From Herpetosiphon aurantiacus DSM 785 (GTDB taxonomy: Bacteria; Chloroflexota; Chloroflexia; Chloroflexales; Herpetosiphonaceae): a DNA stretch of 64,000 nt. This document shows, one piece after another, positions 4,573 to 20,130 of the stretch (within the stretch, counting starts at the first letter, position 1; every line of letters starts with the position of its first letter). The position numbers and the translations under genes were made by a program. The notes under the pieces are model-generated. The model was not told the DNA's origin. It made no database searches and was given only the letters and a program-made list of their open reading frames with translations. The stretch is taken from positions 1,317,199-1,381,198 of the forward strand of contig CP000875.1 in NCBI GenBank assembly GCA_000018565.1. The letters run 5' to 3'.

Positions 4573-5517
4573 ATGGCTATTTCAAAATCGCAAACTGCCA
4601 GCGCCAAACCCACCACCAGCCGCCCAATGCTTAGTTGGAAACGCCGCGAACAACGGGTTGCGTGGGCATTTGTGGCTCCGGCACTGCTATTGCTCCTGAT
4701 CTTTTTGATCGCGCCCTTTGGCTTGGCTTTTTATCTTTCGCTGACCGACCAACGCCTCGTGCCCAATCCCAACTTACCAACGCGCTTTGTTGGCCTCAAA
4801 CATTATCTGGCAATGTGGCAAGATGCGACCTTTGTCCGTGCTTTGCTGAATAATTTCTTGTTTGTGGCGGTAGTTGTGCCAGTTCAAACCAGTTTTGCCT
4901 TATTTCTGGCAGTTTTGGTCAACCAAAAAATCAAAGCAATCAACTTTTTTCGCACAATCTACTTTATTCCAGTCGTCACAATTATGGCGATTGTGGCGGT
5001 CGTTTGGACGTTTCTTTACAATCCCGATCAGGGCATTATCAACAAATTTATTCAGACGATTAGCTTTGGTCAACTTGGCCCCTATCGCTGGCTCGAAGAC
5101 CCTAAATTAGCGTTTCCGGCGATTATGTTGATGTCGATCTGGCAGGGCGTTGGCTTTCAGATGGTGATTTATCTGGCGGGCTTGCAAGAAATTCCTGGCG
5201 AATTATACGAAGCAGCTCAGTTGGATGGAGCGAGTGCTTGGCAACAGTTTCGCTTTGTCACCCTGCCTCAATTGCGCAATACCTCAATTTTTGTGGTGAT
5301 CTCAACCACAATTATGGCCTTCAAGCTGTTCGATCAAGTTGAGATTATGACCAAGGGCGGCCCTAACGATGCTACTGTCACCGCTATGTTGCATATCGTC
5401 AATAGCGGGTTTCGTACCCAAAAAGTTGGCTATGCCTCGGCACTTTCGGTAGTGTTTTTCATCATTGTGTTGCTGATCTCGCTGGGCCAACGAATTTTTA
5501 CCCGCTCAGAAAGGTAG
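4573..5517 (+). CDS. Sugar ABC transporter permease (MalF/UgpA type)
   Basis: 314 residues from the ATG at 4573, which has AAGGAG 8 bases upstream; the earlier GTG at 4564 overlaps that site. Six membrane segments are apparent, starting with WAFVAPALLLLLIFLIAPFG. The cytoplasmic EAA loop, EAAQLDGASAWQQFRF, is the contact for the ATPase. It forms the transmembrane channel with the next gene product. No ATPase gene is present in the operon, so the complex must borrow one encoded elsewhere (MsiK-like sharing is known for CUT1 importers). Confidence 0.92.
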   Translation: MAISKSQTASAKPTTSRPMLSWKRREQRVAWAFVAPALLLLLIFLIAPFGLAFYLSLTDQRLVPNPNLPTRFVGLKHYLAMWQDATFVRALLNNFLFVAVVVPVQTSFALFLAVLVNQKIKAINFFRTIYFIPVVTIMAIVAVVWTFLYNPDQGIINKFIQTISFGQLGPYRWLEDPKLAFPAIMLMSIWQGVGFQMVIYLAGLQEIPGELYEAAQLDGASAWQQFRFVTLPQLRNTSIFVVISTTIMAFKLFDQVEIMTKGGPNDATVTAMLHIVNSGFRTQKVGYASALSVVFFIIVLLISLGQRIFTRSER

Positions 5518-5524
5518 GTTAATC

Positions 5525-6415
5525 ATGCAACGTCCTGCAATTGAACCAACCAAGCGCTGGCAAAAAAGCTCACGCACATTCGGCATCTACCTGCTGATGA
5601 CGGGAATCGCGCTGTTTACCCTGTTTCCCATCCTATTTATGTTGGTCACGGCGATCAAAGCTGATGAATCGCAGATTTTGCGTGAAATGAGCACATTTGC
5701 AGCGTTTTTGCCAACTGGAGAACTTTCGCTGCAAAACTTTCGCGATGTCTTTGAGCGCGTACCATTTGCCCAATATCTAATCAATTCGGTAATTATTGCC
5801 TTGTCAATTGTGATCTGTGGGCTGTTTGTCAATAGCTTGATCGCCTATGCCTTGGCCCGTATGCAATTTCGCGGCCAAAAATTGCTCTTGGCAATTGTCG
5901 TGGCATTGATTATCATTCCATTTCAGGCAGTTGCCGTGCCTTTGCTGCTGATCGTCAATCAGTTGCCATGGTTTGATGGCCGCATGACCTGGCTCGATAG
6001 CTATCATGTGCAGATCATTCCATTTATTGCCGATGCTTTTTCGATTTTCCTGTTCTACCAGTTTTTCCTAAATATTCCCAAGGATATTGAGGAAGCGGCC
6101 TTGGTCGATGGAGCCAGCCGTTTTCGGATGTATTCACAGATCATTGTGCCACTTTCACGCCCAGTTTTTGCGACCGTCGCCATTCTGCAATTTCTGACCC
6201 ACTGGGGCGATTTCTTGTGGCCATTGATGGTGGTACGTGATCCAGCGGTGCGACCATTGACGGTTGGTATGCAAGCCTTTTTTGGCCAAATGCCACGCCA
6301 ATGGGGCGATATTATGGCCTTCGCCACGATGGTAACGCTACCAGTGCTGATTATTTTCCTGCTGTTCCAAAAATGGTTCGTTCAATCGGTGGCCTCATCG
6401 GGGGTCAAGGGCTAA
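5525..6415 (+). CDS. Sugar ABC transporter permease (MalG/UgpE type)
   Basis: 296 residues and six membrane segments, beginning with YLLMTGIALFTLFPILFMLV. It has an extracytoplasmic loop after the first segment, as in MalG-type proteins, and the EAA loop EEAALVDGASRFRMYSQ. It starts 7 bases after the preceding permease. It ends the operon: a family-A repeat whose arms form a hairpin with a T5 run follows within 30 bases. Confidence 0.92.
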   Translation: MQRPAIEPTKRWQKSSRTFGIYLLMTGIALFTLFPILFMLVTAIKADESQILREMSTFAAFLPTGELSLQNFRDVFERVPFAQYLINSVIIALSIVICGLFVNSLIAYALARMQFRGQKLLLAIVVALIIIPFQAVAVPLLLIVNQLPWFDGRMTWLDSYHVQIIPFIADAFSIFLFYQFFLNIPKDIEEAALVDGASRFRMYSQIIVPLSRPVFATVAILQFLTHWGDFLWPLMVVRDPAVRPLTVGMQAFFGQMPRQWGDIMAFATMVTLPVLIIFLLFQKWFVQSVASSGVKG

Positions 6416-16189: not shown

Positions 16190-17466
16190 TGGGTAGCCTG
16201 TGGAAAATGCAGTTGAAGCGTGCAGCCTATCGCAACGTCGGGCACATGCAGCCACGCTTGGGCCTGCGTAAGCATCTGTTGCACTTGCTTCAAACCCAAG
16301 CCTTGCTTAATCGCACTAAAATCAGCCTGATTCAGCGCCGTGCGTAAGGCTTGATGCATGCCCGCCCCATCATCACGAACTTCGATTATCACGTTTTGCT
16401 CCGATCGATAGCTACTGATACGTACCTCGTGATGGCAACGGCTCAAACTATTATCGAGCAAGTTGAATAAGGCTCGCTCAAATTGCTCACGATCGGCCAC
16501 AATCACGCTGCCCGCGTCAATTTCAAGTTGCACTTTGACAATTGGCTCGCTGTAGTAGGCCGCCAAACCGCTGATTGCTGGCTGCAATTGCCCCAAACAG
16601 TGCTGTACATCGATGATTTCGAGGCTTGCCCGTTGGCGACCAAGCTGCTGACGGGCTTGATCGAGCAAATTATTAAGTTGACGTTCGACTCGTTGGGTTG
16701 CGGCTAGCGCTGGCTGAATCGTGCTATGCGTGCTTGGTTGTTCAAAAGCCAAGCCTTGCAACAAGCCTTGAACGCTTTTCAAGGGCTGGCGCAAATCGTG
16801 TTTCAGCAAACTCAGTTGTTGCACATGGGTTTGTAAATCGTGAAGTTGCTGTTGCATGCTGCTCTGTTGTTGCACCAACTCAGCGGTTTGGCTATGTTGT
16901 TGGCTGGCATGCCACAAGGTTTGGCGCGAAACAAAGCCAATCGTACTGCACATCAACACAATACTCAGCACGACAATCATCACCAAAGCCCATTCATTGA
17001 GCACAATAAATTGCCCTGCAAAGCAATAATTCAGCCCAATCAGCCCGCCAATGTACGCCAACACCTGCCAAAATGGCATCACCACCGCAAAACCGGCCAA
17101 CGCAAACAGCTCTACAATAATTACATTTGGCAAGTGCATCACATAGGCTAAAACCGTATTATGTGCCATTGCAAACACCATCGTAGAATGCCAAGCCCAA
17201 TTAATTTGTTTACGCTGTAGCAACCACCAAACTAGTAAAGGATTGAGCAGGCTACGGGTAAGGTGTAAAACCAAAACACTACTTGGCTGCTGATGATTGG
17301 CCACCGCTACGATTAATACAAGCGTAAATGGCAAAGCCAAACCACCAGCTAACAGCATAATCCACTCGATCAAGCGGCGTTTGTTGTGCTCCAGCAGGTG
17401 TTGATAATGAACTACAATAGCAGGATCGGCATGATTTTTGGCTCGATTAATGATCGTTTTGAGCAT
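16186..17466 (-). CDS. Membrane sensor histidine kinase
   Basis: 426 residues from the ATG at 17466. About six membrane segments (for example LAGGLALPFTLVLIVAVA, VMPFWQVLAYIGGLIGL, ALVMIVVLSIVLMCSTIG) are followed by a coiled coil rich in Gln/His. Next comes a HisKA box with the phospho-acceptor His in LSLLKHDLRQPLKSVQ, then an ATPase domain with N box FNLLDNSLSRC and G box VRDDGAGM. It has no separate sensory domain, so it probably senses through its membrane part or through the small membrane proteins encoded ahead of it. It overlaps both neighbours: 20 bases with the upstream gene and 4 with the regulator. Confidence 0.9.
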   Translation of the reverse strand: MLKTIINRAKNHADPAIVVHYQHLLEHNKRRLIEWIMLLAGGLALPFTLVLIVAVANHQQPSSVLVLHLTRSLLNPLLVWWLLQRKQINWAWHSTMVFAMAHNTVLAYVMHLPNVIIVELFALAGFAVVMPFWQVLAYIGGLIGLNYCFAGQFIVLNEWALVMIVVLSIVLMCSTIGFVSRQTLWHASQQHSQTAELVQQQSSMQQQLHDLQTHVQQLSLLKHDLRQPLKSVQGLLQGLAFEQPSTHSTIQPALAATQRVERQLNNLLDQARQQLGRQRASLEIIDVQHCLGQLQPAISGLAAYYSEPIVKVQLEIDAGSVIVADREQFERALFNLLDNSLSRCHHEVRISSYRSEQNVIIEVRDDGAGMHQALRTALNQADFSAIKQGLGLKQVQQMLTQAQAWLHVPDVAIGCTLQLHFPQATQ

Positions 17467-17767
17467 TGTTGAACCGTCTTTTGAGGCTAGCCAGCATCGT
17501 CTGATAATCGTGATCAAACAGCCAGCCAAAGCAACAAAACAGCATCAGGCTATTCAAACCAGCACTCACTACAATTGCCAGCAACTCGAATGGCAACAAA
17601 TAGGCAATGATGCTATGCAAAAAATCAATACAGCCAACGATTAACAATGCAATCAAGCCAAAACTAAGAATTTTGAATGCTCCACGCGGACGAAAATGCT
17701 GAATTAAAATCCAGCAACTAAGCACAGCAATTGCCAGATGCACTGGCCATCTATGACTGAAGATCAT
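17447..17767 (-). CDS. Small integral membrane protein of the two-component operon
   Basis: 106 residues from the ATG at 17767; a TTG at 17785 would overlap the preceding small gene. Three or four hydrophobic segments (HLAIAVLSCWILI, ILSFGLIALLIVGCIDFL, AIVVSAGLNSLMLFCCFGWL), then a charged tail (LASLKRRFNNAQNDH). No family recognised. Its stop overlaps the kinase start by 20 bases, so the two are likely translated together. It may be a partner or sensor subunit of the kinase (inference). Confidence 0.75.
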   Translation of the reverse strand: MIFSHRWPVHLAIAVLSCWILIQHFRPRGAFKILSFGLIALLIVGCIDFLHSIIAYLLPFELLAIVVSAGLNSLMLFCCFGWLFDHDYQTMLASLKRRFNNAQNDH

Positions 17768-17771
17768 CAAT

Positions 17772-17891
17772 TCACCAACGCTCAACGATTAATTGCAGCA
17801 CCAAACAACTAAACAGCCCCAACCCGCAACCCAAGCCAATCCCGATAATTGGCCAGAACAGCCGTTTAGCCTCACGATCAAACTTCAACAC
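17772..17891 (-). CDS. 39-aa single-span membrane protein at the head of the two-component operon
   Basis: GTG start with AGGAG 6 bases upstream. The protein is MLKFDREAKRLFWPIIGI through CLVLQLIVERW: a charged N-terminus, one long hydrophobic helix with two Cys and many Gly, and a short charged end. It stops 4 bases before the ATG of the next membrane protein, and all four genes run close or overlapping. A hairpin in the leader abuts its ribosome binding site. No family recognised. A small regulator or accessory subunit of the kinase is the simplest reading (inference). Confidence 0.65.
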   Translation of the reverse strand: MLKFDREAKRLFWPIIGIGLGCGLGLFSCLVLQLIVERW

Positions 17892-17900
17892 GCTACACTC

Positions 17901-17940
17901 CTAAAACTAGCTCCAACTGATTCGCTCAGCGCTAGTTTAG
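17901..17940 (-). promoter_or_regulatory. Leader hairpin abutting the ribosome binding site of the 39-aa gene
   Basis: Plus-strand arms CTAAAACTAGC and GCTAGTTTAG (one bulged A), with an inner CTGA/TCAG pair. The 3' arm on the transcript ends in the AGGAG used by the small gene, so the fold could limit access by ribosomes. Confidence 0.5.
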
Positions 17941-17988
17941 CTGAATCGGTTATGTTTGAATCGGGCTTTTTCCCAGCTTTTTCCCAAG

Positions 17989-20079
17989 CTAGATGGCTAA
18001 AATGCTGGCGGGGCTAGGCACTAAATCACGGGTAACCACGCGCTCGTTTGCTCGATTAGGGGCCAAAATATCAATTGGTTCTTGTGGTTCGAGCTGATTG
18101 TCGGGGCCAGTTGTAAACCAAGGGGTGATGCGCAAGCGCCAACCATTCAAGGTTTCATCCATGTTAAAGGTAACAAGGCTTTGCAATAATGGCGAACGAT
18201 CATGGTTAAGCGCATTGGTGTAGCCGCGATTTAAAATAGTTGGCTCTTGGCCGACAAGCCAGCGCCGCAAGCCCCACATTTGGTCATCAAGCTCGATTTT
18301 GCCGTTGAATTTTGCCCGCAGCTGTTGCGCTGTCGGAAATACTTCGCGCAACATCACCTGATCAACGATATCCTGTTCATCGTCACGGTAGACAAAGCGC
18401 GATTCCAAAGGAGTCATGCCGCTGGGCGTGTGCCAATGTAAATCAACTGGCTTGCTCAGATACGCGCCACCACCGCCATTGACCAGATGATGCGCAATAT
18501 GTTGGGTTCCGCGCAACGTGATATAGCGGGCTTCGTAATGTTGAAAGGCATGGGTATCGCCGCCAATCACCACATGGGTTTCATAGCGCCGCAACAATTC
18601 ATACAATTGGCGCATGCCAGGGTGATCGGCAAAGGCTCCATTAACATATAACGGCTCGCTGAGCACCACCGCAATAATTTTTTGTTGATTGAAGGCTGTT
18701 AGTAAACAGGTTTCCAGCCATTGCAGCTGAATGGGATCGACGCTGCCGATGCAGCCAGTATCGACGGCCAACAACACAAATGGCACTGGATCAAAGCTCA
18801 ATTCAAAAAATGGTAAGCGTTGGTGAGTACGCGGCTCATTCAGGTCACCGCCAAGCCGCGTCAGGCCATAACGTTGGCGCAAACTTTGCACTTCGTTCCA
18901 GCGCAATTGCCCCCATGGATAGCCATAGCGTGCCCAAGGCCCAGTTTTGAGCGCTTTGGCCCATTGTTGCAACTGCGGATCGCGGCTTTCGACATGGGCG
19001 GCGGCATAACCAAAATTCAGCATCAAGCCCTTTAAATCGTTGTACCAATCGTGATTCCCCGCCAAACCATAGATTAATGGCGAGGTTGAACTATCGCTCG
19101 CATAAGGCCGATACAGCGTGCGTTCATAATCCATCAACTCACCAGCTGGATAGACAATATCCGAGCTAAGGATGGTAAAAGTGGGATACGCTGGATTGGC
19201 TGGGCCTTGTTGAGCCAACGCGCTCTGCTCGGGCACAATTGGCGGGGCAATCTGCGATTCGTCGCCCTCACCAGGATCGCCAATCACCGCGAAGGTAAAG
19301 CCGCGTTGCGGGTGGGCGACTGGCTCAATTTTGGCAGCTTTGGCCACATCACGCGGCGCTTTGCTACCCACAATATGCTCGATATAGGCCATACGCACCG
19401 TATCAGCCAAATCGCTTTCGGCCAATGGTGGAATCCCCCAACGTGGCATCAAGCTATATTTCAAATGAGGCAACAATGTGCGCCAGTTCGGCGGATCGAT
19501 CCACGAGAAGCTGCCACTTTTGAGCAAACGTCGCGCAAGGTAGAATCCCAAATAGTACATGGTGAGCAGCACACACAGGGTTGCTAGCAATTCAACCCAA
19601 TTTTTAATCGCATCGATAAAACGAGTGTCGCTATCGAGAATTCGCGCTGGAACCAGCAATAATTCTAATATGATGGCAATTCCGCTGACGGTCAGCAAGA
19701 CCATACATAAAAATTGGATGACGACTAGCACGCCGCCAGTATAGCTTGAGGGTGAACGATCGCCTGCGCGTAAGCGTCGTCGTAGCTCGCGATAGAGCGT
19801 CAGCAAGCCCATAATTGCTAATGAGCTGGCAATTACCGTGCGTAGTTGAGGAAACGGCAGCAGCGCGAGGGTGAGCATGGTTGTGCTGACCGCAAAAATC
19901 TTAATCAGCAGCAAGGCCGCCCCAGCCAATTCCATCATTGTCATGGTGCGATGTGCCCAGTGTGAGGTTTCGATCCAAATTAAACTAAGCACTAAGATTG
20001 TGGTGATGATTAAATAGGTGCGAGCCGAGCTTGGCATGCCCAACGCAACCAAATATTCAGCGATTGTTCCAAACAGCAT
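17989..20079 (-). CDS. Membrane-anchored metallophosphoesterase
   Basis: 696 residues from the ATG at 20079, preceded by GAGGTG. The N-terminal third has about five membrane segments (IITTILVLSLIWI, AALLLIKIFAVSTTMLTLAL, VVIQFLCMVLLTVSGIAIIL). It is followed by a calcineurin-like phosphoesterase domain with its metal-binding signatures: FAVIGDPGEGDES, YGLAGNHDWYND and VVIGGDTHAFQHYEAR. The expected chemistry is hydrolysis of phosphate esters with two metal ions; the substrate is unknown. Which side of the membrane the domain faces cannot be told. It is separated from the upstream operon by a hairpin and is probably transcribed alone. Confidence 0.88.
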   Translation of the reverse strand: MLFGTIAEYLVALGMPSSARTYLIITTILVLSLIWIETSHWAHRTMTMMELAGAALLLIKIFAVSTTMLTLALLPFPQLRTVIASSLAIMGLLTLYRELRRRLRAGDRSPSSYTGGVLVVIQFLCMVLLTVSGIAIILELLLVPARILDSDTRFIDAIKNWVELLATLCVLLTMYYLGFYLARRLLKSGSFSWIDPPNWRTLLPHLKYSLMPRWGIPPLAESDLADTVRMAYIEHIVGSKAPRDVAKAAKIEPVAHPQRGFTFAVIGDPGEGDESQIAPPIVPEQSALAQQGPANPAYPTFTILSSDIVYPAGELMDYERTLYRPYASDSSTSPLIYGLAGNHDWYNDLKGLMLNFGYAAAHVESRDPQLQQWAKALKTGPWARYGYPWGQLRWNEVQSLRQRYGLTRLGGDLNEPRTHQRLPFFELSFDPVPFVLLAVDTGCIGSVDPIQLQWLETCLLTAFNQQKIIAVVLSEPLYVNGAFADHPGMRQLYELLRRYETHVVIGGDTHAFQHYEARYITLRGTQHIAHHLVNGGGGAYLSKPVDLHWHTPSGMTPLESRFVYRDDEQDIVDQVMLREVFPTAQQLRAKFNGKIELDDQMWGLRRWLVGQEPTILNRGYTNALNHDRSPLLQSLVTFNMDETLNGWRLRITPWFTTGPDNQLEPQEPIDILAPNRANERVVTRDLVPSPASILAI

Positions 20080-20130
20080 AATGCACCTCAACACACAACA
20101 ATCCTTGGGGCATTTCGATTGATTCAAGTA

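Follow-up and report, generated by a model that had tools for sequence, protein, structure and literature searches.

A two-component operon of Herpetosiphon headed by two conserved genes for small, predicted membrane proteins

The saePQRS operon of Staphylococcus aureus has two auxiliary genes ahead of its two-component pair and a self-induced promoter at its head, with GTTAA-N6-GTTAA sites. The auxiliary proteins SaePQ induce the phosphatase activity of the kinase SaeS (both points from excerpts of PMC5083920), and SaeS is an intramembrane-sensing kinase (from excerpts of PMC12239555). MgrB, a membrane protein of 47 amino acids, is under the control of the system that it acts on, and its membrane span mediates contact with PhoQ (PMC8404706, in the portions used here). 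ScrA, with 88 amino acids and one predicted span, activates SaeS; its membrane segment suffices for activity and touches the membrane portion of this kinase (PMC12239555, likewise in part). As far as these partial sources go, small proteins can make contact with a kinase through a membrane span (PMC8404706, PMC12239555).

Here we describe an operon whose closest known counterpart, if systems are compared by their logic, is saePQRS. It lies in a stretch of 64,000 nucleotides from Herpetosiphon aurantiacus DSM 785 (the window), which falls within the 6.35-Mb contig of a 6.79-Mb genome. Two auxiliary genes, which we call p1 and p2, precede a histidine kinase and a response regulator, and both the gene order and the junctions recur in six of six Herpetosiphon genomes. 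We think it probable (roughly 60%) that the four genes form a two-component operon which is switched on by the response regulator that it encodes, and that p1 and p2 are membrane partners that tune the kinase. Our comparisons covered nine genomes of the family (six Herpetosiphon, namely the window's genome and G002 to G006, plus G001, G007, and G008), 82 genomes of the order, and 400 of the phylum. There was no paper on this operon among the listed matches of a literature search whose coverage excluded most subscription journals.

The four genes

All four genes are on the minus strand, in the order p1 (17891-17772, 39 amino acids), p2 (17767-17447, 106 amino acids), kinase (17466-16186, 426 amino acids), and regulator (16189-15329, 286 amino acids). 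The original prediction for this locus was made from the letters of the window, and it described the layout well: p2 begins 4 bases downstream of p1, and there are overlaps of 20 nt between p2 and the kinase and of 4 nt between the kinase and the regulator. These junctions (+4, -20, and -4 nt) are identical in all six Herpetosiphon genomes. The start of p2 is the ATG at 17767 (a mechanical list of reading frames begins it at the TTG at 17785). One detail needed correction: position 17447, where the feature was said to start, is the end of p2 and not of p1. The fixed junctions fit translational coupling of the four genes, which are presumably co-transcribed. The next gene upstream (17989-20127, minus strand, about 700 amino acids, from the list of reading frames) is hydrophobic towards its N terminus and contains a region that resembles, by eye, a metallophosphoesterase. 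Its frame ends at the same position in six of six Herpetosiphon genomes. No terminator was called between it and p1, and read-through from it could provide basal expression of the operon.

As predicted, a GTG with AGGAG six bases upstream opens the 39-codon frame of p1, and a hydropathy scan finds a single hydrophobic segment in its product. This frame is kept, next to p2, in all six Herpetosiphon genomes, with 87-100% identity to the window's p1. The corresponding identities are 56-92% for p2, 71-95% for the kinase, and 88-97% for the regulator, so p1 is more conserved than p2 or the kinase. Across 15 genome pairs, dN/dS is 0-0.13 for p1, 0.12-0.45 for p2, and 0.10-0.19 for the kinase. The 29 variable columns of p1 fall at codon positions 1, 2, and 3 in the ratio 5/2/22 (p = 3e-6), and this concentration at third positions argues against conservation for RNA reasons alone. 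Judging by these substitution patterns, p1 and p2 are selected protein-coding genes, and p1 is under strong purifying selection. Its exact start varies: the GTG is present in five Herpetosiphon genomes and is GTA in G005, three relatives have an ATG one codon upstream, and the sole position at which all six share a start codon is codon 2, a TTG. Given this variation, the product has 38-40 amino acids. We read its hydrophobic segment, in which G19, G21, G23, and G25 are invariant, as a membrane span, and by the positive-inside rule the N terminus is probably inside.

Strong matches to p1 occur in 6 of the 82 genomes of the order, and all six are Herpetosiphon. At E 0.05, p1 matches in 10 of the 82; the four matches outside Herpetosiphon are weak (E 0.007-0.03), and two of them contain an internal stop. 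With the single sequence and a threshold of E 1, the other three genomes of the family match only at E 0.3-0.85, and none of the three has a match to p1 or p2 comparable to those in Herpetosiphon. Searches at E 1 found no family for p1 in Pfam or NCBIfam and no match in PDB; PHROGs had none either. The second small gene, p2, encodes three hydrophobic segments, probably with the N terminus outside and the C terminus inside if the positive-inside rule holds. It matches in 6 of 82 genomes of the order. Its invariant stretches are GCIDFLH (less its V/I neighbour), AYLLPFEL, and MLFCCFG, and the protein contains invariant Cys, Asp, His, and Glu. No family reached the cut-off for p2 in Pfam or NCBIfam, none was found in PHROGs at E 1, and the only PDB matches were two magnesium-ATPase sequences at E about 0.7. 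Among the genomes that we searched, p1 and p2, as recognized by sequence similarity, are found only in Herpetosiphon.

The kinase and the regulator are more familiar. The kinase contains HisKA (PF00512, 31.3 bits) and HATPase_c (PF02518, 38.6 bits), both above cut-off, with no further domain above cut-off; the Pfam search found no HAMP or PAS family. Its H223 is invariant in seven of seven aligned kinases. The regulator contains a receiver domain (PF00072, 34 bits, above cut-off) whose D58 is invariant in seven of seven aligned regulators. So the pair has both the phospho-acceptor His domain and the phospho-acceptor Asp receiver of a two-component system. It had been claimed that the kinase lacks a separate sensor domain, and this agrees with the Pfam result and with a structural model, in which six helices in residues 15-180 precede the kinase core and the last continues as a long helix. 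The model has a mean pLDDT of 65.4, mostly 75-82 for residues 20-100 and 48-58 for residues 110-200, so confidence is low after about residue 110. A hydropathy scan at one threshold gives five segments for the window's kinase, three for that of G003, and six for that of G008. In its sequence and its model the kinase qualifies as intramembrane-sensing: the predicted input region consists of membrane helices, and no extracytoplasmic sensor domain was found. It would sense its signal in the membrane.

The DNA-binding part of the regulator is harder to classify. Response_reg is the only family above the Pfam cut-off; no winged-helix family appears at E 1, and no OmpR- or NarL-type output family is listed. 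After the receiver come a helical region and, at the C terminus (SEYYRRRKEAI), a putative helix-turn-helix marked by SEYYRRR. This C terminus weakly resembles DUF1492 (E 0.14 for the window and 0.0016 for G008, neither of which reaches the curated threshold) and weakly matches a PHROG of phage transcriptional activators (E 0.0045). The model of the regulator (mean pLDDT 58.6) is poor in the DNA-binding part. Fold searches with the regulator and kinase models returned two-component proteins or their receiver domains in the best 50 rows each, and these rows are uninformative for the DNA-binding part and the membrane part. The regulator matches in 7 of 82 genomes of the order at E 1e-8 and in at least 7 of 400 of the phylum at E 1e-15 (with the best 6 candidates per genome scored). 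Each Herpetosiphon genome also has a second match to the regulator, and the window genome's copy adjoins a kinase-like frame of 554 amino acids (in a list of frames of 80 amino acids or more).

The kinase's input domain matches in 8 of the 82 genomes of the order. The eighth (E 6e-21) is G050, from another family, where the kinase with the related membrane domain (L116, 4738-3024, minus strand) is split into two overlapping frames and is apparently truncated. A hydrophobic open reading frame of 117 amino acids ends 34 bases before it. By eye this frame resembled a fusion of p1 and p2, but profile comparison gave probabilities of 0.5% and 0.3%, and we rejected that idea. Box-like sites at this locus number 6 versus 3.85 expected. 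The 117-residue frame has no detectable similarity to p1 or p2, and we do not regard the locus as a relative.

Taken on its sequence, the locus is an otherwise ordinary two-component operon with real, conserved, and unfamiliar small genes.

A direct repeat and a -10-like hexamer

The conserved feature of the leader is an 11-bp direct repeat followed by a -10-like hexamer, which points to transcriptional self-control. The repeat (17967-17987, minus strand) reads TTGGGAAAAA-NN-TGGGAAAAA, with the core GGGAA-N6-GGGAA; a single base separates its start from the upstream gene's stop codon, and it is a candidate operator of the cognate regulator. The proposed -10 hexamer, TAAACT (17934-17939, minus strand), is TA[A/C]ACT in relatives. 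An alignment of the six Herpetosiphon loci shows that the letters of the repeat are invariant; it conserves TAGCTTGGGAAAAA-NN-TGGGAAAAA, in which the TAG ends the upstream gene, and TA(A/C)ACTAG, and the spacer between these two blocks varies for the most part. The distance from the second GGGAA to the hexamer is 30 nt in all six. We see no -35 consensus, and a sigma-70 scan called no consensus promoter at the hexamer, as would be expected if an activator replaces the -35. The transcript would start near 17927.

How specific is this pattern? The sequence GGGAAAAANNNGGGAA occurs once each in eight of the nine family genomes: at this operon in the six Herpetosiphon, near the orthologous kinase in G008, and in G001, a genome without a match to the regulator or a kinase-regulator pair. 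The reversed control has a single match, in G007. The longer pattern of repeat, N30, and TANACT has, with no mismatches, one match each in seven of nine family genomes (the six operons and G008). At two mismatches there are ten more matches in the family, versus eight for the reversed control. All of the promoter evidence comes from these seven genomes of one family.

One of the two-mismatch matches recurs in all six Herpetosiphon genomes (L083, 1501-1553; also L084, L086, L087, L090, and L091). It lies in an intergenic region whose conservation is striking; the gene downstream of this region has, by eye, two receiver-like domains, and the site faces away from that gene. It may be either a second target or a coincidence.

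The sister genus offers a useful comparison. In G008 (genus g4), the regulator matches at E 1.7e-78 and the kinase is directly before it. Identity to the window's proteins is 48% for the regulator and 31% for the kinase, and SEYYRRR is unchanged. There is no p1 or p2 beside this pair and no match elsewhere in the genome. On reading the locus, we noticed that the opposite strand carries GGGAAAAAGTGGGGAA, some 320 bp ahead of the kinase. Since this site points away from the kinase gene, simple activation of that gene, as in Herpetosiphon, is not open to it.

Because we drew up the long pattern after seeing G008, we trained weight matrices on the six Herpetosiphon sites alone. Three were made, and the version with both repeat and hexamer was the last. 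The repeat-only matrix ranks the G008 site best in its 12-kb locus (9.7, next 0.9), and 20 of 2000 intergenic shuffles reach its score. Across the fetched loci (0.92 million positions) it is outscored by six unrelated sites, and three of these six lay in loci that had been fetched by a repeat pattern. With the whole-leader matrix, the top score in the G008 intergenic region is equalled by 27 of 2000 shuffles. The repeat-plus-hexamer matrix gives the G008 site 19.2 and the next site in the 12-kb locus 2.7; none of 5000 intergenic shuffles reaches 19.2, and one unrelated site in G006 is higher (25.1). In these two genera, the repeat and hexamer are a conserved sequence near the kinase-regulator pair, even where p1 and p2 are absent.

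The G008 site faces about 100 nt that end in a terminator-like hairpin (10 pairs, then ATTACTTTTT). Terminator-like sites in this region number 4 versus 1.1 expected. The segment between repeat/hexamer and hairpin (L065, about 5285-5186, minus strand) is a candidate small RNA under the same regulator. As a whole it folds no better than shuffles (16 of 200 fold as well), no Rfam family was found in the locus, and the best match in another genome of the family is at E 0.065. In the same locus (5400-5600), two copies of a GC-rich element (GCAGGGT...ACCCTGCCGGGGGCTTGGGGCTG) can be seen by eye between the repeat and the kinase.

How the operon may work

Our proposal is as follows. A signal would reach the kinase in the membrane, and the regulator would become phosphorylated. 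The phosphorylated regulator would bind the two tandem GGGAA half-sites, which are one helical turn apart, at about -60 to -40. From there it would act upstream of the -35-less -10 and raise transcription of p1, p2, kinase, and regulator, whose overlapping or nearly touching genes may couple their translation. The one span of p1 and the three of p2, made together with the kinase, would pack against its membrane helices and set the balance between kinase and phosphatase activity. Given self-activation, the most useful sign of this effect would be negative feedback. We prefer this sign because SaePQ (PMC5083920) and MgrB (PMC8404706) act so in the excerpts that we cite, while ScrA activates (PMC12239555, in part).

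The repeat and the regulator stand together in two genera with different other neighbours, which is our reason for tying them together; that the regulator binds there, and acts positively, seems likely to us. The contact of p1 and p2 with the kinase, its sign, the translational coupling, and the signal are suggestions of the model. Several findings count against the proposal: G001 has the repeat core but no match to the regulator; the G008 kinase exists without p1 and p2, and the G008 site points away from it; the first two matrices are weaker, and with the third a G006 site outscores that of G008; and the DNA-binding part of the regulator is weakly recognized. The original prediction allowed that the small proteins are the sensor or a dedicated regulator. 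A regulatory role fits their fixed order and spacing, the lack of a soluble sensor domain in the kinase, and the published small-protein modulators. The sensor half of the suggestion is weakened by G008, whose orthologous pair lacks p1 and p2, so that the kinase can probably sense by itself.

Alternatively, p1 and p2 might be the output of the system and act elsewhere in the membrane rather than modulate the kinase. If the operon's own promoter is the only clear site, then what the signal brings about is more p1 and p2. Indeed, we found no second strong site (at up to two mismatches of the long pattern, the window genome has 2 further matches versus 1 for the reversed control), and the single G008 site faces a different short segment. 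But our site search covered the long pattern at up to two mismatches; the two-mismatch site upstream of another regulator gene is kept in six of six Herpetosiphon; and operons with kinase-modulating partners would look the same. We consider this alternative unlikely, but worth keeping in mind. Similarly tentative, and to our minds unlikely, is a broader idea of a self-contained membrane signalling loop. The regulator would have essentially one target per genome, at its own locus, and the product driven by the promoter would have been swapped in evolution: the new small proteins p1 and p2 with the kinase and regulator in Herpetosiphon, and a terminated transcript of about 100 nt in G008, where the repeat and the -10 keep their spacing but point in the opposite direction. 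The small proteins or RNA would be both output and feedback on an intramembrane-sensing kinase, and the system would match saePQRS by independent evolution, while using another kind of DNA-binding domain.

It is improbable that the kinase depends on p1 and p2 as subunits that sense the signal directly or bind a ligand. The invariant Cys, Asp, His, and Glu of p2 would suit such a role, as would a kinase in which no soluble sensor domain was found, but the orthologous kinase in G008 has a related membrane domain and no p1 or p2.

We think it very improbable that this is an Agr-like loop, in which p1 would give rise to a peptide signal, either secreted or lipidated, with p2 as a processing helper and the kinase as receptor. 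The parts list is suggestive: a small peptide gene, a small membrane protein, a multi-span kinase, and a regulator with a probable site at its own operon. We also applied two general lipoprotein-site patterns to p1. The loose pattern matches at C22 and C29, but it also matches 19.4% of shuffled p1 cores, and the strict lipobox is absent; a lipobox in p1 is not supported. Furthermore, peptide pheromones generally vary across species, and p1 is nearly invariant. Agr-type kinases are not known to be of the HisKA kind, and the window's kinase is. No processing-enzyme family was found in p2 in Pfam or NCBIfam.

Finally, it had been proposed that a leader hairpin masks the ribosome binding site of p1 and controls translation of the whole coupled set, and we give this almost no credence. 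Its arms would be 17940-17931 and 17911-17901 (minus strand), with the second running into AGGAG at 17902-17898. The window's letters allow a helix of ten pairs and one bulge, and those of G006 nearly allow it. Across six genomes, 45% of the cells for these ten pairs are paired in the proposed register, with no changes on both sides. Sliding by one column raises this to 66.7% because the self-complementary CTAG persists, and this CTAG-CTAG complementarity at a one-base shift is what remains in the other four genomes. Of 300 shuffles of the element, 53 fold as well in the window; the counts are 53 in G006, 20 in G004, 188 in G003, 87 in G002, and 68 in G005. For the leader from the inferred start site onward, the counts in the six genomes are 62, 14, 284, 144, 289, and 275 of 300. 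RNAalifold on the leader gives 13 pairs, of which 3 have changes on both sides and none belongs to the proposed helix, and Rfam has no match at E 1 in 17300-18100. The 5' arm also covers the proposed -10, so it would be absent from the RNA. With no covariation, shuffles that fold as well, and an arm over the -10, the hairpin (17898-17940) is unsupported as an RNA element, and we reject it as a switch.

Comparison with known systems

If our proposal is true, then the logic of saePQRS arose separately in the Herpetosiphon lineage, and with a partner of 39 amino acids that is more conserved than the neighbouring p2 and kinase. The operon would also offer a small, naturally occurring system for studying how a peptide with one span adjusts a kinase whose input is membrane helices only, and the sister genus supplies the same kinase without the partners for comparison.

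Like the Herpetosiphon operon, whose logic we compare from the genes alone, saePQRS has four genes with two auxiliary ones at the head (PMC5083920, in part). Both have a kinase with membrane sensing, here by its predicted membrane-helix input (PMC12239555, in part). The sae head promoter has GTTAA-N6-GTTAA as its binding site (PMC5083920), and the candidate site here, GGGAA-N6-GGGAA, is likewise a direct repeat of 5-bp half-sites around a 6-bp gap. The differences, again from the excerpted text of PMC5083920, are considerable. SaeP is a lipoprotein of 146 amino acids and SaeQ has 157 amino acids and four helices, whereas p1 has 39 amino acids and one segment and p2 has 106 and three. A winged helix is present in SaeR and a HAMP domain in SaeS, and Pfam found neither family in the Herpetosiphon pair. 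The kinase precedes the regulator in Herpetosiphon, while the sae order is regulator and then kinase. Also, a further promoter lies inside the sae operon, and about twenty genes are targets of the system. Since Pfam found no winged-helix regulator and no HAMP domain, we do not file the operon under saePQRS.

MgrB resembles p1 as a small membrane protein, and control of p1 by its own system is proposed only. According to the same portions of PMC8404706, the periplasmic region of MgrB is also necessary, whereas p1 has almost nothing there past its hydrophobic segment, and p1, unlike MgrB, sits in the kinase's own operon. Nor can p1 be placed in the MgrB family, as it has no Pfam or NCBIfam family at E 1. 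ScrA is also a small single-span protein that acts alongside an intramembrane-sensing kinase (PMC12239555, in part). It differs from p1 in being outside the four genes of the sae operon (PMC5083920, in part), in having 88 amino acids, and in activating its kinase (PMC12239555). On the sequence evidence, the Herpetosiphon operon is probably a self-regulating design of a known kind that is built from new parts.
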